DNA of 38,540 nt, from IMG/VR virus record IMGVR_UViG_3300021062_000034, positions 1 to 38,540 of that record; one strand, written 5' to 3'. Below are positions 21,234 to 38,540 of the stretch, piece after piece; within the stretch, counting starts at the first letter, position 1; the number at the start of each line of letters is the position of its first letter. Source of the stretch: a virus. The position numbers were made by a program, and so were the translations under genes. A model generated the notes under the pieces. It saw only the letters and a list, made by a program, of their open reading frames with translations, was not told where the DNA came from and did not search any database.

Positions 21234-21275
21234 GACTTGGGGTATACCAACTACTGACTTGGGGTATCCCAACTA
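21234..21275. repeat. Two tandem 20-bp repeats with internal dyads
   Basis: GACTTGGGGTATACCAACTA (21234-21253) is repeated with one difference (GGTATCCCAA) at 21256-21275, spaced 22 bp centre to centre. Each contains a TTGG...CCAA dyad. The second copy includes the integrase stop codon. Candidates are Int/Xis arm sites or operator/activator sites for the adjoining promoter. Confidence 0.7.
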
Positions 21276-22328
21276 GTGGAAGCGAAGTTTTTTCGAAGGC
21301 CCCCTGTCTACCTCGTACCGTCTCTTGTCATAGAGCTCCACCATGGTGATGCTCCTGTGCCTCGAGAACTCCTGCACCTCCCGGTGAGGGACGCCGTCTT
21401 CTAGGAGCTTCGTAATGCTCGAAGCTCTGGCACTGTGGGGGGTAAACTCCGGGCCTAGCCCTATAGCGTCACACGCCTGCCGGAAGACCTGGTAGACAGC
21501 TCCGGGCTTCATAGCGCGTTCGGTAGACTTCAAGCCCCCACGGCCTGAGTACTCATTAAAGAGAGGATGACTCTTCTTAGCCCCCTCCGCGTGCCGCTGT
21601 GCCATGAGGGCACGGAGATGCTCTACCGCCCACTCGGGCACGGCTTGCCGCTTATCCTCTTTCCCCTTAGTGCCCCTCAGGAACACGAACCACGTACCGG
21701 CAGGGGTTGTGCCTATGTCTCCGAGTAGCAGGTTCACCGCTTCTCCACGCCTAAGCCCCCCGCCAAAGAGAAGCGCAAGTAACGCACGGTTTCTGATAGC
21801 CTTTGGCGAACTGTCTCCCCACTCGAGGAGCTCCTTCACACGATGAAAAGGCACCATCTCTGTCGGCCTTTTTGTACCGTCTGTCTGCCTTGGAGGTTTA
21901 ACGAGAAGGGGATCAAAGGGATTCACCCCCTCAAAGAGCTTATGGGCTATCAGTACCGCGTACGCACGCCTCAGACACATGCAGTACTTCTTGACGGTAG
22001 CAGCTGAAAGCGTTGCTACGACTCCTTCCCCTTTTAGAGCCCTGGGTGTCTCGCCTATCCGCTTCTTCAGTTCATTGACGTAGGCAAGGCTCTCAACCCC
22101 TGTCACACGTTTTAAGCGATCAGCGCCGGCTGTGGTGCCGGGTGTTACCTGAACAAACCTCATCCAATCGAGCATGATGCCGATATAGGTCCGTTTTGTG
22201 GTGGGAGCTTGAGAGTCTAGCCATGCAGACCACGCGAGCCATACGGTATGAAACTTCCTCGTGCGTGGTGCGTACACTGCAAAGACCCCCCAAAGAGTTG
22301 GCAGGTTCTTGCACATGCGCGGAGTCAT
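21273..22328 (-). CDS. int: Tyrosine recombinase / integrase, 351 aa
   Basis: The catalytic set of the lambda-integrase family is visible: Arg193 in GGGLRRGE, a lysine in RGTKGKEDKRQAVP (221-223), HSAR (His298, Arg301), His324 in FSRHRSI, and the nucleophile Tyr333 in VELYDKRR. A SAM-like core-binding domain (about residues 27-135, WLAWSAWLDSQAPTTKRTYI) precedes it. The extreme N-terminus (MTPRMCKNLPTLW) is unusual and ATG 22316 is an alternative. It would integrate the genome or resolve multimers. It is transcribed away from the late operon and ends inside the tandem repeats. Confidence 0.92.
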   Translation of the reverse strand: MTPRMCKNLPTLWGVFAVYAPRTRKFHTVWLAWSAWLDSQAPTTKRTYIGIMLDWMRFVQVTPGTTAGADRLKRVTGVESLAYVNELKKRIGETPRALKGEGVVATLSAATVKKYCMCLRRAYAVLIAHKLFEGVNPFDPLLVKPPRQTDGTKRPTEMVPFHRVKELLEWGDSSPKAIRNRALLALLFGGGLRRGEAVNLLLGDIGTTPAGTWFVFLRGTKGKEDKRQAVPEWAVEHLRALMAQRHAEGAKKSHPLFNEYSGRGGLKSTERAMKPGAVYQVFRQACDAIGLGPEFTPHSARASSITKLLEDGVPHREVQEFSRHRSITMVELYDKRRYEVDRGPSKKLRFH

Positions 22329-23982: not shown

Positions 23983-25377
23983 TTGTTCGCATGGTCTCCA
24001 CAACCTGGGCCCCAATCTGAGGCGATAGCTGCCACCTGGTGCGATGAGCTCTTCTTCGGAGGTGCCAGAGGTGGTGGCAAATCCGACTACCTTCTAGGCG
24101 ACTACCTACAGGACGTAGAGCGGTACGGCCGTCACTGGCAAGGAATTCTATTCCGCAAATCGTACCCTGAACTCTCAGGCATAATCGAACGGGCGCGTGC
24201 CCTCTATACGCAGACAAATGCCCAGTGGAAGGAGGCGTCTCACGAATGGCACTGGCCCAATGGGGCAAAGCTTAGGTTTCGTCACCTCGAGAGAGACGTA
24301 GACGCAGACAAGTACCAGGGGCACCAATACTCGTGGATAGGGTTTGATGAGCTTCCTAACTGGGCATCACCTGGCGGATACGACAAGCTTAAAGCCTGTA
24401 GGCGCTGGGCGGACATGGAGATCCCCACTAAACGGGTACGCTCTACCGGTAATCCAGGTGGCGCAGGTCACCAGTGGGTTAAGTCACGATTCATAGACCC
24501 TGCCCCTAGAGGCTATGAGCCCATCTTTGATGAGCGCACGAAATGGCGACGGATGTTCATCCCGTCTCGCGTCAAAGACAACCTTATTCTCCTCATGAAC
24601 GATCCGGGCTACGTGGATTCCCTCCGTGGTGTCGGCTCTGAGCTATTAGTCCGCGCCTGGTTAGAAGGTGACTGGTCAGCGATAGTCGGCGCCTACTTTG
24701 ATTGCTTCTCCCTCGAGCGCCACGTGATAGCGCCTCGTGAGCTTCCAAAGCATTGGACGCGGTTCCGTGCCTTTGACTGGGGAAGTGCTAAGCCTTTCTG
24801 CTGCCTCTGGCTCGCGGTCTCTGACGGCACGGTAGCAGAGCACCCGGCAGGACAAGTCATAGTCTATAAGGAGCTCTACGGCTCTTCGGCGCCGAACGTG
24901 GGGGTTAAATGGACATTCTCCCAGGTGGCGGAGGCTATCCGTGAGAGAGACGGACACGAGAACATCACGTACTCAGTAGCAGACCCCGCCATGTTCAAAC
25001 AGGACGGCGGGCCTTCGATGGCTGAGGAATTCCGAAAACATGGCGTTCTTTTTCGGCCGGCGGATAACGAACGCATTGCCGGTTGGGTACAGGTCAGGCA
25101 GCGCCTTCAGGGACACGATGAAATCCCTATGGTGCAAATGTTTTCAACTGTTACAAATCTTATAAGGACACTCCCCGCGCTCCAACACGACGAGGTTAAG
25201 CCTGAAGACGTGGATACGGACGGGGAGGACCACGCAGCGGACGCACTCCGTTACGGGCTCATGAGTCGCCCGTATACGCAGCCAGCCCCCGAAGCAGGGA
25301 AACCATTACGAGGCGTTGAAAACGCAACCCTAGATGAGCTTTGGAAGAGCTCCCCTCGTAAGGCTAAGAGGCTTTGA
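23983..25377 (+). CDS. terL: Terminase large subunit, 464 aa
   Basis: The start is TTG 23983, supported by AAGGTG. The ATPase domain has Walker A GGARGGGKS (residues 26-34) and Walker B ending in Asp122-Glu123 (WIGFDE). The C-terminal RNase-H-like nuclease has Asp265 (RAFDWGS), Asp334 (SVADPAM) and Asp416/Asp420 (GEDHAADALRYG). It pumps DNA into the prohead and cuts concatemers; the circular-permutation evidence of this window fits headful cutting. The length is normal. It overlaps the portal gene by one base. Confidence 0.95.
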   Translation: MFAWSPQPGPQSEAIAATWCDELFFGGARGGGKSDYLLGDYLQDVERYGRHWQGILFRKSYPELSGIIERARALYTQTNAQWKEASHEWHWPNGAKLRFRHLERDVDADKYQGHQYSWIGFDELPNWASPGGYDKLKACRRWADMEIPTKRVRSTGNPGGAGHQWVKSRFIDPAPRGYEPIFDERTKWRRMFIPSRVKDNLILLMNDPGYVDSLRGVGSELLVRAWLEGDWSAIVGAYFDCFSLERHVIAPRELPKHWTRFRAFDWGSAKPFCCLWLAVSDGTVAEHPAGQVIVYKELYGSSAPNVGVKWTFSQVAEAIRERDGHENITYSVADPAMFKQDGGPSMAEEFRKHGVLFRPADNERIAGWVQVRQRLQGHDEIPMVQMFSTVTNLIRTLPALQHDEVKPEDVDTDGEDHAADALRYGLMSRPYTQPAPEAGKPLRGVENATLDELWKSSPRKAKRL

Positions 25378-27641
25378 TGGCTGAAGCACCTACAAAAAAC
25401 CAAGCGGCGCGCGTTAGAGCAAAGCTCCAGACCATAAAGAGGGATCAAAAAGCCTTTGACCATTGGGAGCAGGATGCTAAGCGCATTACCCGCAGGTACC
25501 GAGGCGAATCACAAGACGCTCTCACTCCTACTGACGACAAAGAGAACCGCTACAACATCTTCTGGAGTAATCTCCAAACGCTTCTCCCCTCTCTCTACGC
25601 TCGTACGCCTGTCCCTCAGGCTGAAAGGCGCTTTAAGGACAAAGACGAACTAGCGAGGATAGCTGCCGAGATAATCGAGCGGGCTACGAGGTTTCAGTTA
25701 GAAGACCATGACTTTGATGCAGCCGTGTCTGCTGCAGTCTTAGACCTCTGTCTTCTGGGGCGCGGTGTTTGCCGTGTCAGGTACGTGCCTAAGTTTGAAG
25801 GTGAGCAGAAGGTAGAAGAGAACGTCTACGCTGAGTATGTCTACTGGAAGGACTTTTCCCACAGCTCTGCCCGCTCATGGGATGAGGTACAAGAGGTCAG
25901 GTTTCGTATCTACCTCACGCGCGCAGATGCAGAAGCGCAGCTCGGTAAAGAGATAGCCGATAAACTTATCTATAAGTATTGCGGTGTAGGGCTAGAGGAG
26001 GAGGAGAACTCCAAACAGGTAGAAGGGGGTGATAGCTGGAAGAAGGCCCAGATATGGGAGGTCTGGAATAAGAAGTCTAAGACCGTCTGTTGGCTCTCGG
26101 AAGACGTTCCAGATATCTACCTGCGCGAGATACAAGACCCTTTACAGCTTAAAGGCTTCTTCCCGATGCCTAAGCCGCTTTATGGGTCTCTCACGAATGA
26201 TTCGCTCGTACCCGTTCCAGACTTTAAGCAGTATTCAGCACTTGCAAACCTCTTAGACAAGACCATCGCCAGAGAGCAGGCGCTTGTAGAGGATCTACGC
26301 GTTGCAGGCGTCTATGACGCAGCGTGTGACGATATTCAGAGGCTTTTAGAGACAGGTGGAAACCGTCTTATCCCGGTAAAGAACTGGGCAGCCTTTGGCT
26401 CTCAAGGTGGCTTTGATGGTGCTGTGCAATTCTGGCCCATCACTCAGGTAGTAGAAGCGCTCCAGGTTATTCATGCCGAGAAAGAGCAGATAAAGAACGA
26501 TATCTACGAGGTCACCGGCTGGGCAGACATCATGCGTGGGGCTAGTGACCCTAATGAGACTGCAGCCGCTCAGCAGATTAAAGGACGGTTTGCCTCGATA
26601 CGCCTCACGCGACGGCAAATGGACGTTCAACGCTTCGTCAAAGACCTTGTAGCACTCACAGCCGAAATACAATCGGAGCTCTTTGAGCCTTCAACGTTTC
26701 TCGCCATGACGGGCGATGAGTTTATCCCCGAACCTCAGATACCGCCTCAGGTAGACCCGGCAACCGGGCAGCCTATCCCGCAAGATCCGCAGATGGTAGC
26801 GCAACTCGTAGCGCAGCAGAAGCAGAAGATCTACCTAGCTGCCGTAGAGCTCCTCCGTAATGACCCAATGCGGCGCTTTAAGATCGATATCGAGACTGAT
26901 TCCACGCTCGCCATAGATGATGCGCTTGACCAGCAGAAGCGCAGCGACTTTATGCAGTCCATCACGGGCTTTCTTCAGGTTATGGGCAAACTGGGGCAAG
27001 AGCTTCCGTCGTATGTACCGGCAATGGGAGAAATGCTTCTCTTTGTCGCTCGCACATACAAGGCAGGCAGGAACCTAGAGAGCGAGCTCGAGAACGCCAT
27101 TGAAGAGACAAAGGCGCAGCTTGAGGCTGCTAAGAACGCTCCGCCACCGCCTGATCCGAAGCAGCAAGAGCTTGAAGCGAAGATCCAGCTAGAGACCATG
27201 AAGGCTCAGAGCGCTCAACAGACTGCCGCACTCAAGGCCGACCTCGAGGCTAAGCTAGCTAACCTTGAGCACGCGGCAGCCATTCGCGAGCTCGAGTTCA
27301 AGATGATTGTCGATGCCAAGAAGGAAGAGGCGCAAGCCAAAGCCGACATGGCAATCGAAGCCATAAGAGCCCAGGTGCAGGCGCTTGAGGCTAAAGCTAG
27401 TGCACCTGCCAAGGGTAGCGGCTCTGGGCTTCGGGTGAATGTCGCTAGGAATAAGCGGCGCGTTGTGGCGCTTCCTCCTGATGGCACGGGGGCTAAGAGG
27501 TTTCAGATAGAAGACATAATCGAGGAGCTCGCTCCGGGGACAGTGGGACTAGATGCCGCGCCACCAAAGAACATTACAGCGCACAAGGCAGACGGGCAGG
27601 GTGGACATGTGTTCTCAATCGATGAAGGGGAAGTGAGTTAA
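25377..27641 (+). CDS. Portal protein, 754 aa
   Basis: The size and sequence style of a P22-like portal are evident: a charged helical start (KNQAARVRAKLQTIKRDQKA), the TDDKENRYNIFWSNLQTLLP motif with SLYARTPVPQ, a mixed core, ALVEDLRVAGVYDAACDDIQ, ASDPNETAAAQQIKGRFAS and RLTRRQMDVQRFVKDLVALT. A long C-terminal coiled coil (about residues 560-690) would form the portal barrel. ATG 25377 overlaps the terminase stop as TGATG. It forms the dodecameric head vertex through which DNA enters and leaves. Confidence 0.9.
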   Translation: MAEAPTKNQAARVRAKLQTIKRDQKAFDHWEQDAKRITRRYRGESQDALTPTDDKENRYNIFWSNLQTLLPSLYARTPVPQAERRFKDKDELARIAAEIIERATRFQLEDHDFDAAVSAAVLDLCLLGRGVCRVRYVPKFEGEQKVEENVYAEYVYWKDFSHSSARSWDEVQEVRFRIYLTRADAEAQLGKEIADKLIYKYCGVGLEEEENSKQVEGGDSWKKAQIWEVWNKKSKTVCWLSEDVPDIYLREIQDPLQLKGFFPMPKPLYGSLTNDSLVPVPDFKQYSALANLLDKTIAREQALVEDLRVAGVYDAACDDIQRLLETGGNRLIPVKNWAAFGSQGGFDGAVQFWPITQVVEALQVIHAEKEQIKNDIYEVTGWADIMRGASDPNETAAAQQIKGRFASIRLTRRQMDVQRFVKDLVALTAEIQSELFEPSTFLAMTGDEFIPEPQIPPQVDPATGQPIPQDPQMVAQLVAQQKQKIYLAAVELLRNDPMRRFKIDIETDSTLAIDDALDQQKRSDFMQSITGFLQVMGKLGQELPSYVPAMGEMLLFVARTYKAGRNLESELENAIEETKAQLEAAKNAPPPPDPKQQELEAKIQLETMKAQSAQQTAALKADLEAKLANLEHAAAIRELEFKMIVDAKKEEAQAKADMAIEAIRAQVQALEAKASAPAKGSGSGLRVNVARNKRRVVALPPDGTGAKRFQIEDIIEELAPGTVGLDAAPPKNITAHKADGQGGHVFSIDEGEVS

Positions 27642-27644
27642 GCT

Positions 27645-28082
27645 ATGGCAACGTATACAGGTACCACAAACATATTCAACAGCTGGGTAGAGTACATGGC
27701 GGAAGCCGCCAATACGGCGTCTGACACCTTCAAGATGCTTCTGACGACGAGCTCTTGGACTCCGAACCAGGCAAACCACTCCGTCCTTACAGACGTAACA
27801 AACGAGCTCTCCGGGAACGGCTACGCTCGGTACACCCACACGGTGACAAGTAACCGGTCGGCTGCAGTCCTTACCTTTGACCTCGACAACGCGGTCTTTA
27901 CGGCTTCCGGTGGTTCGCTCGTGGCTAGGTACTGGTGCATATTCGATGACACGGTGGCTAACGACCCGCTTGTAGCGTACGGGCTTATCGATAATACGCC
28001 GGCTGATGTCACAACCACGGACGGCAATACGCTTACTGTCACCATCAACGCTTCGGGACTCTTTACCGTAACAAGGAGCTAA
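27645..28082 (+). CDS. Virion surface beta-sandwich protein, 145 aa
   Basis: The chain resembles a recurrent phage structural family: FKMLLTTSSWTPNQANHSVL, ELSGNGYARYTHTVTSNRS, AVLTFDLDNAVFTASGGSLV, then YWCIFDDTVANDPLVAYGLI, with strands alternating and a TLTVTINASGLFTVTRS end. It is probably an exposed head or tail decoration. It follows the portal gene and starts a run of three similar surface genes. Confidence 0.7.
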   Translation: MATYTGTTNIFNSWVEYMAEAANTASDTFKMLLTTSSWTPNQANHSVLTDVTNELSGNGYARYTHTVTSNRSAAVLTFDLDNAVFTASGGSLVARYWCIFDDTVANDPLVAYGLIDNTPADVTTTDGNTLTVTINASGLFTVTRS

Positions 28083-28083
28083 C

Positions 28084-28590
28084 GTGGCGTCAGGGGATCC
28101 GGTCGTCAAAGTTCTAAGGGCCATGCCTCCGGCTTCAAGCTACGCGACTTTTGACGTAAGGCCCGGAGGTTCTACACCTGCAGAAGGTGTCGAGGTCTTA
28201 GACTTTGACGGCACGTCTATCGAGTACATGGATTTCCTCTGTCGGCTCGAGGGCTATGACGGCGGGGGCCTTACCTTTACGCTTCCCTGGTCTGCAACGA
28301 GTGCCACCTCCGGCTCTGTGAGATGGGGCATAGCGATTAGGTCCATGGTCGATGACGCTGAAGACGTCGATGCTGCTCACACCTACGACTATAACGAGGT
28401 GACAGACACTACAGCCTCCGCAACGGGAGAGCTCTCGTATCCTGTCATTACCTTCACTGACGGTGCTGACATGGATTCATGGGCAGAGGGAGAGCTTGCC
28501 ATAGTCCGTGTAAGACGAGACCCGACAAACGCAGCGGACGATATCGCGTCAGACGCTGAGCTCTGGGGGCTATTCGGCAAAGAGACCTAA
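28084..28590 (+). CDS. Virion surface beta-sandwich protein, 168 aa
   Basis: It starts at GTG 28084. A beta-rich chain (VRPGGSTPAEGVEVLDFDGT, IEYMDFLCRLEGYDGGGLTF, SVRWGIAIRSMVDDAEDVD, GELAIVRVRRDPTNAADD) looks like a jelly-roll or fibre-base structural protein seen in several phages and metaviromes. No catalytic motif is present. It is probably a capsid or tail surface component. Confidence 0.68.
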   Translation: MASGDPVVKVLRAMPPASSYATFDVRPGGSTPAEGVEVLDFDGTSIEYMDFLCRLEGYDGGGLTFTLPWSATSATSGSVRWGIAIRSMVDDAEDVDAAHTYDYNEVTDTTASATGELSYPVITFTDGADMDSWAEGELAIVRVRRDPTNAADDIASDAELWGLFGKET

Positions 28591-28593
28591 CGT

Positions 28594-30210
28594 GTGGCAA
28601 CATTATTCACATCCGCCAGCTCTCAGATCCTTGCCCGCGCAGGCGCTAGTATTACTAGCTACAATGGTTCTGATGGCTTTGCGGTCTCTGCCCTTGTAAA
28701 ACCCGCTGCTATTGGCGTTAGGCAGGGCGTCTGGGGAGCTGGGGTCTCCGGCTCTGCGAACAACTTCTTTCGTCTAGACATAACAGCGGGCGGCAACGCT
28801 CAGGCCCGTGCGCGTGACGGCTCAGGCGTCTCTGATTCGTCGTCTACCGGCACGCTGTCTGCCGGCACCATCTATCAGATGGGGTACCAGGGGACGTCTG
28901 CCACCTCGAGGCAGGCGGTTCTTGAAGGCGTCCTAGCCACAGCGAGCACCACGAGCCGAATACCCGCAGGCATTAACCGTACAACCGTAGGCGGTGTTCC
29001 CGATTCGGGAACCGCTGCCTACATGAATGGCACTATCTACTACGTTGCCGAGTGGGCAAAGACCCTCACGCAGTCCCAGTGGGACATGTTGGCCGATAGG
29101 ATTCATCCGCTCGAGGTAGCCCCTGAGTACCTCCTCTCCGTCTGGCTCCTAAACGGGCGATCGACTGAGATAGATATCGTCGGAGTCTGTGAGCTTACGC
29201 CTACCAACTCTCCGACTAAGGCCGATAACGACGGGTTTCTGAGGTCCTATAAGCCCATCTACGGGTGGGGGATGGCGAGCGCGGCGCCGGTAGGTGAGGA
29301 CAATACGTCTGAACTCCCAGTCGCTGCCGTTACCGTAGAAGCCCTTGCCCCCACGGCCACAACAACCGAGCGCCACATCTCGAATGTGCCGGTATCCGCT
29401 GTCACCGTAGCCGGTCTTGCCCCTACTGCCACTAAGACCGAGAACAGAAACTCTACGCTGCCGGTAGCGGCGGTGACTGTTGCGGCCCTAGCGCCTACTG
29501 CAACCACAACCGAGAAGCATATCTCAAACCTCCCGCTTGCAACTGTGGCGGTAGCGGGCCTTGCACCCACAGCGACAGTCGCAACCAACCATACGGTGAA
29601 CATTCCGGTGGCCGCGGTGACCGTAGCAGCCCTTGCCGTCACAGCCTCAACCACCGAGCACCACATAAGCGCGCTGCCTCTCGCTGCGGTTACTCTGCAA
29701 GCGTACCCGGTCACCGCTGAAGCTACCGGGGTCTCGGATTCAACCGATACGCATGATGGGCACTACCACATACCGGTTCCCGCTCGGCCTAAGCGCACCA
29801 AGCTCATTCGCAGGCGGAAAAAGATTCTTAGGAAGCTAAGGCGCGAGGTCAAAGAGGAGACCAAGGAACTCATTTCCGCACTAGAGCGGGAAGACGTTAC
29901 CGACATCCGCGCTCAGCTTGAGGGCTTACAAGCAGAGCTCAGAGAGCTTGTTCTTGCAGAGACCAGGCGTGCTCTCGCACTCGAGGAAGAGGCGTTCTTA
30001 CGTGACCTCGAGCGGCAGGAACGTGAGAAAGAGGAAGCCGCTCAAAGAGAAGCCGAGCGCCTTGCACTCGAAGCGCATTACCGAGGCTTACGAGAGATGC
30101 TTGAAGGCATTCGTCTCGAGGCCGAGCGCATCCATGACTTGGGTATTGAGGATGCGTTACAGGCGCTTTTACTCGCGCTCGATGAAGAGGACGAATACGA
30201 GTTCAATTAA
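28594..30210 (+). CDS. LamG-like adhesin-type virion protein with six tandem repeats and coiled-coil tail, 538 aa
   Basis: It starts at GTG 28594. Residues about 1-225 form a concanavalin/LamG-like domain (GFAVSALVKPAAIGVRQGVW, FFRLDITAGGNAQARARDGS, MNGTIYYVAEWAKTLTQSQW). Residues 241-384 are six 24-residue repeats with consensus LPVAAVTVAALAPTATTTE, probably a beta-solenoid or stalk. A His/Asp/Thr linker then leads into a strongly basic (RPKRTKLIRRRKKILRKLRR) and then Glu-rich coiled coil (about 400-538). It probably decorates the virion and binds glycans or host surfaces. Confidence 0.75.
   Translation: MATLFTSASSQILARAGASITSYNGSDGFAVSALVKPAAIGVRQGVWGAGVSGSANNFFRLDITAGGNAQARARDGSGVSDSSSTGTLSAGTIYQMGYQGTSATSRQAVLEGVLATASTTSRIPAGINRTTVGGVPDSGTAAYMNGTIYYVAEWAKTLTQSQWDMLADRIHPLEVAPEYLLSVWLLNGRSTEIDIVGVCELTPTNSPTKADNDGFLRSYKPIYGWGMASAAPVGEDNTSELPVAAVTVEALAPTATTTERHISNVPVSAVTVAGLAPTATKTENRNSTLPVAAVTVAALAPTATTTEKHISNLPLATVAVAGLAPTATVATNHTVNIPVAAVTVAALAVTASTTEHHISALPLAAVTLQAYPVTAEATGVSDSTDTHDGHYHIPVPARPKRTKLIRRRKKILRKLRREVKEETKELISALEREDVTDIRAQLEGLQAELRELVLAETRRALALEEEAFLRDLERQEREKEEAAQREAERLALEAHYRGLREMLEGIRLEAERIHDLGIEDALQALLLALDEEDEYEFN
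29314..29745 (+). repeat. Six tandem 72-bp coding repeats
   Basis: Units start at 29314, 29386, 29458, 29530, 29602 and 29674. They are in frame and diverged at DNA level but clear in protein (VAAVTVAALAPTATTTE core, then a variable H/N-rich spacer). The last unit is degenerate at its end. Confidence 0.9.
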
Positions 30211-30253: not shown

Positions 30254-30550
30254 ATGGCGAGAGGGTATTTTAGGTACAACCACGAAACCGGAAAGGTAGA
30301 GGAGTTGGAGGCAGAAGCTCCTATAACGCCTCGTCTCGAGGTTATTACCGATTCCCTTCCCCCGGGGGGCCTTAAACATCCCATCACCGGAAAGTACATG
30401 GATTCTAAATCCGAGTTCCGAAAGGTCACCAAAGCCTTTGGATGCGAAGAGCTCGGAAACGAAAAGCCCAGAGACCGGCGCCAAATGAAGGTGCCAGGGC
30501 TAAAGCAGGATATTCGCGAGGCGATAGAGCGTAGTGCTTCAAGACGATGA
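30254..30550 (+). CDS. Conserved small phage protein before the scaffold, 98 aa
   Basis: ATG 30254 gives MARGYFRYNHETGKVEELE. Then come VITDSLPPGGLKHPITGKYM and DSKSEFRKVTKAFGCEELGN, a pattern I recognise from small proteins located between portal and scaffold in podoviruses. The C-terminal helix is basic. The role is unknown, possibly head assembly. It overlaps the scaffold start by 17 bases. The frame upstream of 30254 shadows the LamG gene. Confidence 0.7.
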   Translation: MARGYFRYNHETGKVEELEAEAPITPRLEVITDSLPPGGLKHPITGKYMDSKSEFRKVTKAFGCEELGNEKPRDRRQMKVPGLKQDIREAIERSASRR

Positions 30551-31625
30551 CACCACCGAAGAGGTGGTAGAAGAGACCATAGAAGAAGTAGAGATTCCCG
30601 AAGATTCGGAATCAGACATTCGAGCCTCCATCAGAGAGGCGATGAAACAACACCTAGGCGCAGGTGAGGAAGAAGAAGCGCCCCGTAGCGACAGAGCCAG
30701 AGACGACAAAGGCCGGTTCGCTCCTAAAGTAGAGACCTCCGACCAAAGCCCTGCTGTAAAGGTAGCTGAAGCCCCCAAAGGGCCCATCAGCCCGCCTCAC
30801 AGCTGGACGGACGAGAAGAAAGCCCTTTTCCTTTCGCTTCCCCCCGCCGCACAGGAGTACATCCTGCAGCGGGAAACCGAAGTGACACAGGGTCTATCTC
30901 GACAGGGCAGAGAACTGAGCGAGGTCAAGCGACGAGCCGAACAGTATGACTCATTGCTAGGAGCCCATCAGGAGTTATTTGACAGAAACCGTGTAAGCCC
31001 AGTTGAAGGCGTTCAACAGCTTCTCATGGCGCAGCAGGCTCTTGATGACAATCCGGCGGAAGCACTGAAGATCATAGGTCAGTCGTACGGCCTCAAAGTG
31101 GAGATCGCTCAAGGCGATGACTCCCCGTACAATCAGACAGGATACCTAAGCCCAGTCCTACAGAAGATTAATACCCTCGAAGCACGGCTAGCCCGCCAGG
31201 AAGAGGAGCGTCAGGCACATCAGGCGCGACTTAAAGAAGAACGGCAAGCTCACGCGATAGGGGAAGTCCAATCTTTTGCAGCCGAAGTCGATTCCAACGG
31301 CACACCTCTTAGACCGTACATACAAGAGGTAGCCGATGACATGCTCTTCCACATTGCACATCTCAAGGCAGAAAAGCCTGAGCTCTCCAATCGTCAAGTC
31401 CTCCATGAGGCTTACGAGCGAGCGCTCTGGGCTAATCCTACGACAAGAGAAAAGGCACTTTCGGCAGAGCGGTCACGACTTGAGGCGCAGGAAAGAGCAA
31501 AGAGAAGCAAGCTTGCCGGAAGCTCCGTAAAGAGCTCTCCCGATTCTGCAAGCCTTGCCCCTTCGGTACCTGACGACATACGAGGAGCCATCCGCCTAGC
31601 GATCTCGCAGAACGCGAATCGCTAG
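30534..31625 (+). CDS. Head scaffolding protein, 363 aa
   Basis: It starts at GTG 30534. The chain is acidic at the N-terminus (EEVVEETIEEVEIPEDSESD), has a SWTDEKKALFLSLPPAAQEY motif near residue 90 typical of podovirus scaffolds, and is otherwise highly charged and helical (LEARLARQEEERQAHQARLK), with a short helical C-terminus. It directly precedes the capsid gene. It guides prohead assembly and then leaves. Confidence 0.85.
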   Translation: MLQDDDTTEEVVEETIEEVEIPEDSESDIRASIREAMKQHLGAGEEEEAPRSDRARDDKGRFAPKVETSDQSPAVKVAEAPKGPISPPHSWTDEKKALFLSLPPAAQEYILQRETEVTQGLSRQGRELSEVKRRAEQYDSLLGAHQELFDRNRVSPVEGVQQLLMAQQALDDNPAEALKIIGQSYGLKVEIAQGDDSPYNQTGYLSPVLQKINTLEARLARQEEERQAHQARLKEERQAHAIGEVQSFAAEVDSNGTPLRPYIQEVADDMLFHIAHLKAEKPELSNRQVLHEAYERALWANPTTREKALSAERSRLEAQERAKRSKLAGSSVKSSPDSASLAPSVPDDIRGAIRLAISQNANR

Positions 31626-31632
31626 AGGATAA

Positions 31633-32598
31633 ATGGCAAACAGCAACTATAACGAGATTGCAGCTACGACAATCGAGCTGCGCTCAAAGAAGCTTGCCGA
31701 CAACGTGACGCAGAATACTGCGCTTCTGTTTCGGCTCAAAGAGAAGGGACGTATCCGGCCGTGGAGCGGTGGAAGGAAGATAGTAGAAGAACTCTACTAC
31801 GCTGAAAACTCCACCTTCCAATGGTACAACGGATACGACCAGGTAAACGTATCCCCGTCTGACGTCATTTCGGCGGCTGAGTATTCACTCAAACAGTGTG
31901 CGGTAGCTGTGACCATCTCCGGTGAGGAGATGCTGCAGAATACCGGTGAGGAGGCTTTCATAGACCTTCTCGAGGCACGGATTGAGAATGCTGAAGCCAC
32001 GATGACCAATAAGATGTCGGTTGGCGTCTACTCCGACGGTACCGGTGATGGTGGAAAGCAGCTCGGTGGGCTTCAGCTCATCGTCGCTGACACCAATACC
32101 AATACCGTAGGTGGTATCTCTGGAAGCACCTATAGCTTCTGGAGGAACAACGTCTACGACTTCTCGGATCTGAGCATCACTCCGAGCTCGACCACGATTC
32201 AAGCTGCTATGAACAGCATGTGGCTTGATTGCGTGAGAGGCACGGATAGGCCGGATCTCATCGTCGCTGACGATACGTACTTCGGCTACTACTGGGCGTC
32301 GCTCCAGTCCATTCAGCGCATCACTGATGCGAAGCTTGGACAAGCGGGCTTCCAGACGCTGAAGTTCATGGATGCCGATGTCGTTTACGACGGCGGCTAC
32401 GGTGGAGACTGCCCGTCTTCACACATGTACTTCCTCAATACGAAGCACCTGTCGCTTCGACCCCACAAGGATCGGAACATGAAGCAGATTGGCGGCGACC
32501 GCGCTCCTGTAAACCAGGATGCGATCGTCAAGCTCATCGGCTGGGCGGGGGCACTCACGTGCCGATGCCGGTTCCTTCAAGGCGTAATTAAGGCGTAA
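31633..32598 (+). CDS. Major capsid protein (HK97-like fold), 321 aa
   Basis: The length, position after the scaffold and sequence style agree with a podovirus-type coat protein: ELRSKKLADNVTQNTALLFR, KIVEELYYAENSTFQWYNGY, AAEYSLKQCAVAVTISGEEM, GTDRPDLIVADDTYFGYYWA, FMDADVVYDGGYGGDCPSSH and FLNTKHLSLRPHKDRNMKQI. No signal peptide or protease domain is present. It forms the icosahedral head shell. Confidence 0.9.
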   Translation: MANSNYNEIAATTIELRSKKLADNVTQNTALLFRLKEKGRIRPWSGGRKIVEELYYAENSTFQWYNGYDQVNVSPSDVISAAEYSLKQCAVAVTISGEEMLQNTGEEAFIDLLEARIENAEATMTNKMSVGVYSDGTGDGGKQLGGLQLIVADTNTNTVGGISGSTYSFWRNNVYDFSDLSITPSSTTIQAAMNSMWLDCVRGTDRPDLIVADDTYFGYYWASLQSIQRITDAKLGQAGFQTLKFMDADVVYDGGYGGDCPSSHMYFLNTKHLSLRPHKDRNMKQIGGDRAPVNQDAIVKLIGWAGALTCRCRFLQGVIKA

Positions 32599-33810: not shown

Positions 33811-34667
33811 CCATTTTAAGCCTTATCCAAGAAGCTTCACGGGAACTAAAGATCAATGTTCCCACCTCTGTCATAGGCAGTACTGATGATAACGTCGTCA
33901 ACCTCCTAGCCTTTGCAGAGAAGGAGGGGAAACACCTCCGAAAAAGCTACCCTTGGGTAAGGCTCACAAAGGAATACCCCTTTACTACCTCAAATGGTGT
34001 CGCGTCCTACGCCATGCCAGGGGACATAGACTACGAACAGTTCCAAACCCACTGGGACCGCACTAACAGCTGGCCCCTTCGTGGGCCCCTAACCCCTCAG
34101 GCGTGGCAGGATAGGGTATCGGGTATCAATACGGTCTCCCCGCGTAGTGGTTTCCGCATCAAGGGCTATGCAGACCAAACCATCTTCATAGAGCCCACAC
34201 CTACCGACACTCGAACTCTCGTCTTTGAGTATCAGACAAAGAGCTGGATCCGTCCCGTTACGTGGACTGCCTCCACAGCCTTCGATGCCAACTCGTACTG
34301 CTTCTACAACGGCAATATTTACTCTACGACTGCAGGAGGGACTACGGGTGCAACGGCTCCTACGCACACCTCGAGCTCTGCTTCTGATGGTGGTGTGACG
34401 TGGGTCTATGTCTCGAGCGGCTACGAGACCTTCACCGCTGATACCGATGTCTGCCACATAGACGAAGAGATCATTAAAAGCGGAATCATTTGGCGCTGGA
34501 AGAGAGAGAACGGCTTTGAGTGGGAATCCTACCGGAAAGAACACGAAGCAGCTGTAAAACTCGCATACTCAAGTCAGAAGTCTGCGCCTATTCTGTCACT
34601 GACAGGTAACCGAGTGACGTATCTTCTCGGCCCCTGGAGTCTGCCGGATACAGGATACGGCTCATGA
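33807..34667 (+). CDS. Head-to-tail adaptor (tail tube A-like) with inserted carbohydrate-binding-like module, 286 aa
   Basis: The N-terminal helical part (SLIQEASRELKINVPTSVIG, LLAFAEKEGKHLRKSYPWVR) and C-terminal part (EEIIKSGIIWRWKRENGFEW, EHEAAVKLAYSSQKSAPILS) match podovirus head-tail adaptor proteins. An insertion at about residues 150-206 (ASTAFDANSYCFYNGNIYST, DGGVTWVYVSSG) looks like a CBM5/12-type module, often placed in phage structural proteins. It should form the first tail ring below the portal. Confidence 0.8.
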   Translation: MTILSLIQEASRELKINVPTSVIGSTDDNVVNLLAFAEKEGKHLRKSYPWVRLTKEYPFTTSNGVASYAMPGDIDYEQFQTHWDRTNSWPLRGPLTPQAWQDRVSGINTVSPRSGFRIKGYADQTIFIEPTPTDTRTLVFEYQTKSWIRPVTWTASTAFDANSYCFYNGNIYSTTAGGTTGATAPTHTSSSASDGGVTWVYVSSGYETFTADTDVCHIDEEIIKSGIIWRWKRENGFEWESYRKEHEAAVKLAYSSQKSAPILSLTGNRVTYLLGPWSLPDTGYGS

Positions 34668-36418
34668 CAAAGGAACAAGAAGCACAGCTCGCAGTCCTTC
34701 TCTCGACTAGAGAAGGCCAAAGAATGTGGCAGATAATCCAGACCATCCGCGCCATGCGCGAACAGCGTGAGGCGAAAGAGCAGGCAGAGGAAGATAGAGC
34801 CGATGCGAAAAAGGCGCAAAAACGTGCTCCGTATCAGCAGGCTGCAGGCATTCTAGGCGGTACTGCCGGAACTATCGGCGGCATGTACGTTGCTAACTCG
34901 ATGGCTGCAGGAGGTGCTGCTGCTGGTGGTGCTGCGGCAGCTGGCGGCGGGGCTGCTGCTACAGGTGCAGGCACAGCTGCAGCAACGGGCGCAGGAGCTG
35001 CAACAGGAGCGGGAGTAGCAGCCGGCGGAGCTGCGGCAGGTGGAGCGGCGGCTGGTGGCGCTGCCGCAGGCGGAACAGGTGCTTTTGCGGGCTCAACTGC
35101 GGGAGCCTCTTCTACTGCGGGAGCTTCGGGCGCAGGGTACGGCGCCTATATGTGGCCCCTTGCTGTTGCGATCACGGCGTATAACTCGTGGAAGAACTAC
35201 GAGGCAGCAAAGAAGGCTTCCGGTGGCGGGAACATGACCGACGAGGAAATGGCGAGCATCCATTCTCCGTACCGGGGCGCCGCAGAAAAGTACCTAGGGA
35301 AAGACGTAGTGGGGCCCATCTCAAAGCTTGTGGATATCGGGCCCAATGCACTCATCACCAAGGCGCTTTTCGGCTCTGGCAAACATGATGATCAGATCCT
35401 TCGGGACAGGGTGCGTAAGAACCTCAAGAAAAGTGACTTTATCGGAGAGGATTTCGTCTACACGAACCCTGACGGCTCTACCTTCGACATGGGAAGAGAC
35501 GGGGGGTACAGGGACGAGAAGGGGCTTCGTAACTTCGAGATTGCCCCTGAAGACTATAAAGGCACCACACAAGAGGCTGTGGGCTTTCTTAATCCCCTTG
35601 CTGAGATAGTCACAGGCGGAAACGACAAGCTCCGCTCTGATACTGCCGGCATGTTCGCAAAGGCTGCGCTCTCAGGGGCAGGAGATGACGTAGAGAAGGC
35701 GCGGCAGAATGCTTTAGCCATGTACCAGAAGGCAGGGGTCGATAGAGACACAGCGCTCGCCGCTCTCGATCAGCTCGTAAAGGATGGTGGGATAACCGAA
35801 GAGGAAGCAGCAGCCTATAGAAACGGCGTGAACGCTGTATTCGGAGGGGCAGCACCTGCTCAGCCGGCGCAACAGCAGCAACAGGCTAAACCTCCTGCGC
35901 CTCCTCCTCCGGTAGCGGGACCAGCTGCAGAGCCCCCGAGAGCTCCGGCAGCTACGCCAACTTCACAACCTATGAATTTCACAAAACAGGGAGAGCCCGC
36001 CATGCAGAGACTGCCGTCCCAACAACCTATCGATCCGCGCCTTCAACAGGGCATGACTCCGCAGCAGCTTGATCCCGGGCGCATCCAGGGACGAGGAGGC
36101 TACCTCCCTCCGCAGGCGCAGATGAGACCAGGGGAGACCACGCAGGGAGGCTTGTCACAGCTAGGCAACACCTCTAACTACACCCCGAGCACTCCGCAAA
36201 TCACGCAGCTCCCTCAAGCTAACCCGGGGAACGTTGATCCCGGAATGTATAAGCCTGTCCCAAAGCTTCCGGCTACGGGACAGATGGGCCTTATGGCGCT
36301 TGGCGCTCAGAATAAGCCTCAGTCTGTAAACCCGCAGGACTTGGAACAGCTGCAGCAGCTGGTACAGCAGCAGAAGAAGCCTCTTCCTTTCTGGATGAAT
36401 AAGGCAACGAGGTACTAA
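34664..36418 (+). CDS. Gly/Ala-rich internal or ejection-type virion protein, 584 aa
   Basis: A charged helical start (REQREAKEQAEEDRADAKKA) precedes a 75-residue Gly/Ala tract (about residues 80-160, with AGGAAAGGAAAGGAAAGG), a likely membrane-inserting glycine zipper. Then comes a Trp/Tyr-containing segment and a folded part (DFIGEDFVYTNPDGSTFDMG), an EF-hand-unlike helical stretch, and a Pro/Gln-rich C-terminal third with QQQQQ runs. The composition fits a protein that leaves the head with DNA and forms a channel. The exact family is not identified. Confidence 0.72.
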   Translation: MTKEQEAQLAVLLSTREGQRMWQIIQTIRAMREQREAKEQAEEDRADAKKAQKRAPYQQAAGILGGTAGTIGGMYVANSMAAGGAAAGGAAAAGGGAAATGAGTAAATGAGAATGAGVAAGGAAAGGAAAGGAAAGGTGAFAGSTAGASSTAGASGAGYGAYMWPLAVAITAYNSWKNYEAAKKASGGGNMTDEEMASIHSPYRGAAEKYLGKDVVGPISKLVDIGPNALITKALFGSGKHDDQILRDRVRKNLKKSDFIGEDFVYTNPDGSTFDMGRDGGYRDEKGLRNFEIAPEDYKGTTQEAVGFLNPLAEIVTGGNDKLRSDTAGMFAKAALSGAGDDVEKARQNALAMYQKAGVDRDTALAALDQLVKDGGITEEEAAAYRNGVNAVFGGAAPAQPAQQQQQAKPPAPPPPVAGPAAEPPRAPAATPTSQPMNFTKQGEPAMQRLPSQQPIDPRLQQGMTPQQLDPGRIQGRGGYLPPQAQMRPGETTQGGLSQLGNTSNYTPSTPQITQLPQANPGNVDPGMYKPVPKLPATGQMGLMALGAQNKPQSVNPQDLEQLQQLVQQQKKPLPFWMNKATRY

Positions 36419-37913: not shown

Positions 37914-38540
37914 ATGGCAGGCATGTTTGCGGTAGCACAGCAGGGAAAGACTAACGCGGCAGGTCTTCAGCCGTCTCCCTTTGCCATTAATCAGCCTAAG
38001 GCCGCAAAGGTGCACGAAACCCCTTTCGGTCAGCAGCTGCAGCAGCAAGCTACGGGCCTTTTCGCTGCCGGTCAGAACGCCATGGCGCAAACGCACAACT
38101 ACGATGCCGCGCCAAAGCTTTTGGGCTCTCAAGACCTCCTGCAAGAGAGGCAGCGCATAGAGAGTGCTGTCCGTGCTAACGCTGAAAGAAACCTCGGAAG
38201 ACGCTACGAAGAGGAAGAAGCAGCATTCAGGCAGAGCCTTGCTAATAGGGGCCTAGATAGCGGCTCTGTCCGGTACAACAAAGAGCTCGAGGCTTTCAGA
38301 CGCAGTAAGGATGATGCGTATAGGGAAGCTGACTTTGCTGCCATGCGTGAAGGTGGCGCCGAGATGGATAGGGCCTTTACCCAAAGCCTTCAGGCTCGCC
38401 AGCAGGCTATCGGGGAGACGGAAGCGCTCAGGGATAGACCCTTTAAGGAGATGGCAGCGCTTCTCAATCCGACACTCGAGATGTACGGGCTTGAGACACA
38501 GAAGGGGATCGCCTCTATGCAGGATGAGACCCAACGTTAC
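37914..38540 (+). CDS. N-terminal part of the coiled-coil virion protein (3' end outside the window)
   Basis: The ATG directly follows the upstream stop (TAA ATG). The visible 209 residues have a Gln-rich start (HETPFGQQLQQQATGLFAAG), a helical charged centre (RRYEEEEAAFRQSLANRGLD) and more coiled coil to the edge. RQSLANRGLDSGS with the following acidic and basic helices is typical of podovirus internal or neck proteins. It is probably the same gene as the partial frame at 3-518. Confidence 0.78.
   Translation, partial: MAGMFAVAQQGKTNAAGLQPSPFAINQPKAAKVHETPFGQQLQQQATGLFAAGQNAMAQTHNYDAAPKLLGSQDLLQERQRIESAVRANAERNLGRRYEEEEAAFRQSLANRGLDSGSVRYNKELEAFRRSKDDAYREADFAAMREGGAEMDRAFTQSLQARQQAIGETEALRDRPFKEMAALLNPTLEMYGLETQKGIASMQDETQRY

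Follow-up and report, generated by a model that had tools for sequence, protein, structure and literature searches.

A LamG-like protein with a repeat stalk and a charged helical C-terminus, encoded between portal and scaffold genes of an Mx8-like phage: a candidate head fibre

Head-borne adhesins have so far been characterised in few phages. Fibres or spikes on the head of RcGTA bind the host capsule (PMC7296036), and head adhesins are also carried by phi29, T4 and N4 (PMC7602432). The RcGTA spike consists of a beta-rich base (Rcc01079) and a separate head fibre (Rcc01080), an N-terminal Leu-rich peptide of the fibre being held in the pentameric jelly-roll base, and its target is the polysaccharide capsule of the host. 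The head fibre of phi29, gp8.5, is a helical coiled coil (PMC7602432) that is thought to aid adsorption, while Ig-like head decoration proteins of the Hoc, pb10 and gp17 type help in binding cells or glycans and contribute little to capsid stabilisation (PMC7602432).

We analysed a virus record of 38,540 bases (hereafter the window) from an uncultivated short-tailed phage. The portal (phrog_12082), the major head protein (phrog_9953) and the genes after them resemble those of Mx8-like phages, the major head protein being 49-53% identical to those of Bradyrhizobium phage ppBjS10J-1, Myxococcus phage Mx8 and Stenotrophomonas phage BUCT555. In these three phages the interval between portal and major head protein contains only small genes and a gene in the scaffold position. 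In the window, the interval also holds the genes that we term g145, g168 and T538, which lie downstream of the portal and upstream of a small gene, the likely scaffold gene and the gene for the major head protein (Table 1).

Table 1. Features of the window discussed in the text; residue numbers refer to T538.
Feature	Position	Strand	Basis
Separate fibre-like virion protein, 308 aa	4004..4930	+	phrog_13989 virion structural protein, E 2.1e-10
Portal protein	25374..27641	+	phrog_12082, E 3.7e-172
g145, phrog_644-like, occasional cassette partner	27645..28082	+	phrog_644, E 1.1e-22; present also in L091, L094 and EBPR siphovirus 2
g168, 168-aa jelly-roll/CBM-like protein, usual partner of LamG gene	28084..28590	+	AlphaFold (pLDDT 88), Foldseek, co-occurrence
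T538, target ORF, 538 aa, GTG start	28594..30210	+	ORF list and sequence
Divergent LamG/ConA-like domain, residues ~2-187	28597..29154	+	Weak Pfam match, AlphaFold/Foldseek, profile of relatives
Stalk, six 24-residue repeats, residues 241-384, e.g. LPVAAVTVAALAPTATTTEKHISN	29314..29745	+	Exact spacing, shuffle test; low-confidence single-chain model
Linker with DTHDGHY motif and start of basic stretch, residues 385-401	29746..29796	+	Sequence
Charged helical C-terminus, residues 402-532, proposed virion anchor	29797..30189	+	AlphaFold helices; weak slot-profile match
Small conserved gene between slot and scaffold	30254..30550	+	Found again upstream of scaffold in relatives
Likely scaffold protein	30534..31625	+	Directly upstream of major head protein; recurs in relatives
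Major head protein	31633..32598	+	phrog_9953, E 1.2e-115

With two beta-rich neighbours (g145 and g168) next to a fibre-like protein, this arrangement is reminiscent of the RcGTA spike. However, the anchor that we propose for T538 is C-terminal, whereas that of the RcGTA fibre is at the N-terminus. T538 shares with the head-borne phi29 gp8.5 an elongated form and long helices, but no LamG domain or 24-residue beta repeats have been described for gp8.5, and no sequence match between the two was found. The Hoc, pb10 and gp17 type differs in having Ig-like domains, whereas T538 has a LamG domain and repeats that, at 24 residues, are too short for Ig folds. The N-terminal fold of T538 is, on the other hand, that of the LamG/ConA-like proteins of uncultured Caudovirales (PF13385), of which BFVD contains many phage examples.

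An earlier, sequence-only reading of this gene had described a LamG/concanavalin-like domain, six 24-residue repeats and a charged coiled coil, and the order LamG, repeats, charged helical end was confirmed. The first of these elements is below threshold in Pfam when T538 is used alone, the Laminin_G_3 score (PF13385) being 17.5 bits against a gathering cut-off of 27.6, while SO2946-like_C gave an E value of 2.4e-5. Nevertheless, the fold model and a profile of its relatives agree on the assignment. The AlphaFold model is mostly confident over residues ~12-187 and has a LamG jelly-roll fold; its nearest solved folds in Foldseek are sialidase/CBM40 modules, pentraxins and LamG domains. A joint profile of the relatives matches solved structures of the LamG/pentraxin type (E 1.5e-14 and 8.7e-10), and the relatives in L088, L090, L091, L094, L113 and L120 pass the PF13385 cut-off, scoring far above T538. 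The modelled fold suggests that T538 may bind glycans. These relatives were reached via the neighbour g168 and via an alignment of the LamG domain; direct searches with T538 returned none from viral contigs, nor from 50,697 phage records when hits up to E 10 were allowed.

The six repeats were borne out in full. They start at residues 241, 265, 289, 313, 337 and 361, a spacing of exactly 24, and the autocorrelation of T538 reaches 2.46 at period 24 and 2.85 at period 48, far above the maximum of 0.69 obtained over lags 5-49 in 1000 shuffles, so that the repeats are not due to chance. Modelled as a single chain, the stalk is unreliable (pLDDT below 50). The suggestion that repeat number varies and tunes length held in its first half. 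Stalk length and type differ between lineages: the relatives in L086, L088, L092 and L098 have no repeats, against the six of T538, while that in L091 has 10 of about 22 residues and that in L094 has 11 of the same 24-residue kind; in L090 repeats of period 23 are interrupted by the contig end, and the stalk in L089 is Ser-rich. However, the repeats of T538, which are 29-92% identical to one another in protein, are only 36-71% identical in DNA, and a recent expansion was rejected on these values. They are old and diverged, and there is thus no sign of tuning by recent gain or loss; the variation in stalk length recorded here is between lineages.

Beyond the linker, AlphaFold predicts helices at residues 402-430, 435-515 and 519-532, and D, E, K and R make up 67 of the final 143 residues. 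We looked for a clean heptad pattern in this region and did not see one, so that what stands of the third element is a long charged helix, a coiled coil being only likely.

When g168 was used as query, 18 viral loci were recovered. With an eleven-sequence LamG profile, g168 was seen to be followed immediately by a LamG-like protein in almost every locus fetched; the match is built in for the eleven loci that supplied the seeds, and it is weak for L095 and L099. A further scan with the LamG alignment added loci, many of them with a g168-like gene just upstream. The LamG gene therefore travels with its upstream neighbour across many other viral contigs. A search of 84,980 bacterial and archaeal genomes with g168 yielded a single locus (L126), on a contig of a Myxococcales MAG; here too a LamG gene lies directly downstream of the g168 relative, and Myxococcus is likewise the host of Mx8. 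The fold of g168 itself is jelly-roll/CBM-like. We considered whether it might be a pentameric jelly-roll base like that of RcGTA, but neither profile search nor fold supported this: no base protein of the RcGTA type was returned by the g168 profile search or was present among the 50 best Foldseek matches. Near the LamG cassette, by eye, are glycosyltransferase-like ORFs in two loci (L089:13528-16504 and L091:2624-4479).

In Mx8-like relatives, the slot between portal and scaffold repeatedly holds exchangeable, beta-rich, adhesin-like proteins. L006, L007, L009, L021, L025, L030, L047, L063, L065 and L113 carry a short slot protein ahead of the small conserved gene and the scaffold. These proteins have a layout of a short segment of beta structure or repeats, a motif of the Gly/Tyr or DTHDG type, a basic stretch and charged helices, and their terminus is usually acidic and leucine-rich. 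In 53 Mx8-like loci the portal and the major head protein are encoded on the same contig. A slot protein is present in 5 of the 6 in which these genes are more than 5.2 kb apart and in 1 of the 43 (L009) in which they are less than 3.9 kb apart; as slot proteins were picked by eye, these counts are descriptive. In L113, where the portal matches phrog_12082 and the head protein phrog_9953, g168, the LamG protein and a helical slot protein with three repeats are encoded separately between the two. In L114, the head gene, whose product is of a different type, is preceded by genes for a slot-like protein, a g168-like protein and a LamG protein. A LamG domain, repeat stalk and helical C-terminus joined in a single gene in this slot were not seen in the other loci read. 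L063:2775-6404 encodes two slot proteins with similar repeats of ~22 residues and helical-looking C-termini, and between them a gene that by eye is g145-like.

L113 has the LamG protein and the repeat/helical protein as separate genes, and the window has one gene; T538 appears to be a LamG-stalk gene fused to a slot-type repeat/helical protein. When ten slot proteins, with T538 excluded, were built into a profile, T538 was the top non-member among 8,215 ORFs, at a weak E value of 0.0096 (the next was at 1.0), and none of 500 shuffles reached its score. With leave-one-out profiles, the E value of T538 ranged from 0.005 to noise, and true members were also marginal. T538 was missed by an initial profile built from seven sequences, pairwise blastp with its C-terminus gave nothing credible, and hhalign aligned only ten columns with slot proteins. 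The C-terminal match is weak and in part compositional, and the link of T538 to the slot proteins draws jointly on position, on layout and on the weak signal in sequence. It is quite possible, if on balance doubtful, that the resemblance is wholly compositional, T538 being a LamG-stalk protein whose helical tail is unrelated, as the low scores, the instability on leaving members out and the short hhalign alignment would suggest. Against this are the shared genomic slot, the rank of T538 among all ORFs searched, the shuffles, and a DTHDG or DTHDN motif in the slot proteins of L030 and L065. This alternative bears on the fusion only, and is compatible with a location on either head or tail.

The sequence-only reading had also placed T538 in the head cluster apart from the fibre, and had proposed from this position a capsid-borne adhesin. 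The placement was correct: T538 is encoded with the head genes, with the portal upstream and the major head protein downstream, and a fibre-like gene lies elsewhere in the window. The proposal itself is plausible, but the argument from position is weakened by the mixed settings of the cassette, which lies in head modules of some phages and tail modules of others, so that position alone is no proof of a capsid location. What favours an adhesin on the capsid is the head-module gene together with the adhesin-like slot and the slot-like C-terminus.

Our preferred reading, which we hold with moderate confidence, is that T538 acts as an adhesin on the virion surface, most likely as a head fibre, with a helical C-terminal anchor and the lectin-like N-terminal domain presented outwards. 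This reading rests on the LamG fold with sugar-binding modules as structural neighbours, the pairing of g168 with LamG genes, the recurrence of the slot and the rank of T538 in the slot-profile search, and the head adhesins of RcGTA, phi29, T4 and N4 are precedents for it. The helical C-terminus would attach T538 to the capsid, or assemble it there, possibly as an oligomer, while the beta repeats would keep the LamG domain away from the surface. The latter, probably with the jelly-roll g168, would touch a surface glycan, allowing reversible pre-adsorption before the tail fibre engages. As to origin, the fusion would be of a mobile LamG-stalk gene with a short protein, repeat/helical in layout, that is native to the portal-scaffold slot of Mx8-like phages. 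The lack of an insert of the T538 type in Mx8, BUCT555 and ppBjS10J-1 counts against a head fibre, as does the fact that known fibres are usually anchored by their N-termini. In its favour, the LamG relatives found in tail contexts in L088, L094 and L098 are without a helical C-terminus.

An alternative that we regard as unlikely is that T538, g145 and g168 form a tail-associated receptor-binding complex, whose genes are merely located in the head cluster. The cassette does occur in tail-gene regions: tape-measure genes lie upstream of it in L088, L093 and L098, and in L094 it is in an apparent tail region, as judged from gene order only. In EBPR siphovirus 2, genes resembling g145 and g168 come next after one with annotated similarity to a tail protein, and g145-like genes are found in tail regions of Gordonia and Caulobacter phages. 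However, the window has its separate fibre-like gene, the helical C-terminus of T538 resembles head-slot proteins, and in L089, L091, L102, L113, L114 and L120 the LamG gene has head or connector genes as its neighbours. No characterised tail-fibre homologue of T538 was found, the homologues in tail-gene regions being uncharacterised, and no characterised head-fibre homologue was found by sequence among PDB chains or in the phage records searched. Much less probable still is that the C-terminus is a scaffold-linked assembly or recruitment tag, T538 a minor or internal head-morphogenesis protein and its LamG domain structural and not sugar-binding: the small conserved gene and the scaffold do come immediately after the slot proteins, and charged helices are common in scaffold-interacting segments, but swappable beta-rich heads and long variable stalks suit exposed adhesins better, and many Mx8-like phages have no slot protein, which would thus be dispensable for assembly.

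An exchangeable head-fibre slot would be a more interesting claim than T538 itself. We suggest tentatively, and with less conviction than we attach to the head fibre, that Mx8-like podoviruses keep a dedicated adhesin-exchange slot between portal and scaffold, in which interchangeable heads and stalks, separate or fused, are attached to the capsid through a helical C-terminal module that they have in common. If this is true, a slot with a common anchor would explain how short-tailed phages alter first contact with the host while leaving the tail fibre untouched, and gene order would allow head fibres to be predicted in uncultivated phages.

Some other features of the window were recorded. ORFs are cut by both of its ends (1-518 and 37914-38540), no terminal direct repeat of more than 10 bases was found there and the joined ends keep no single frame; the record is not closed, though it may be nearly complete. 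An ORF at 21273-22328 on the minus strand looks, by eye, like a tyrosine recombinase/integrase, and would point to a temperate phage. Finally, a protein of 584 aa with a long, low-complexity stretch rich in Ala and Gly is encoded at 34664-36418; among the loci fetched by then, phmmer placed its relatives in L006 and L021 only.
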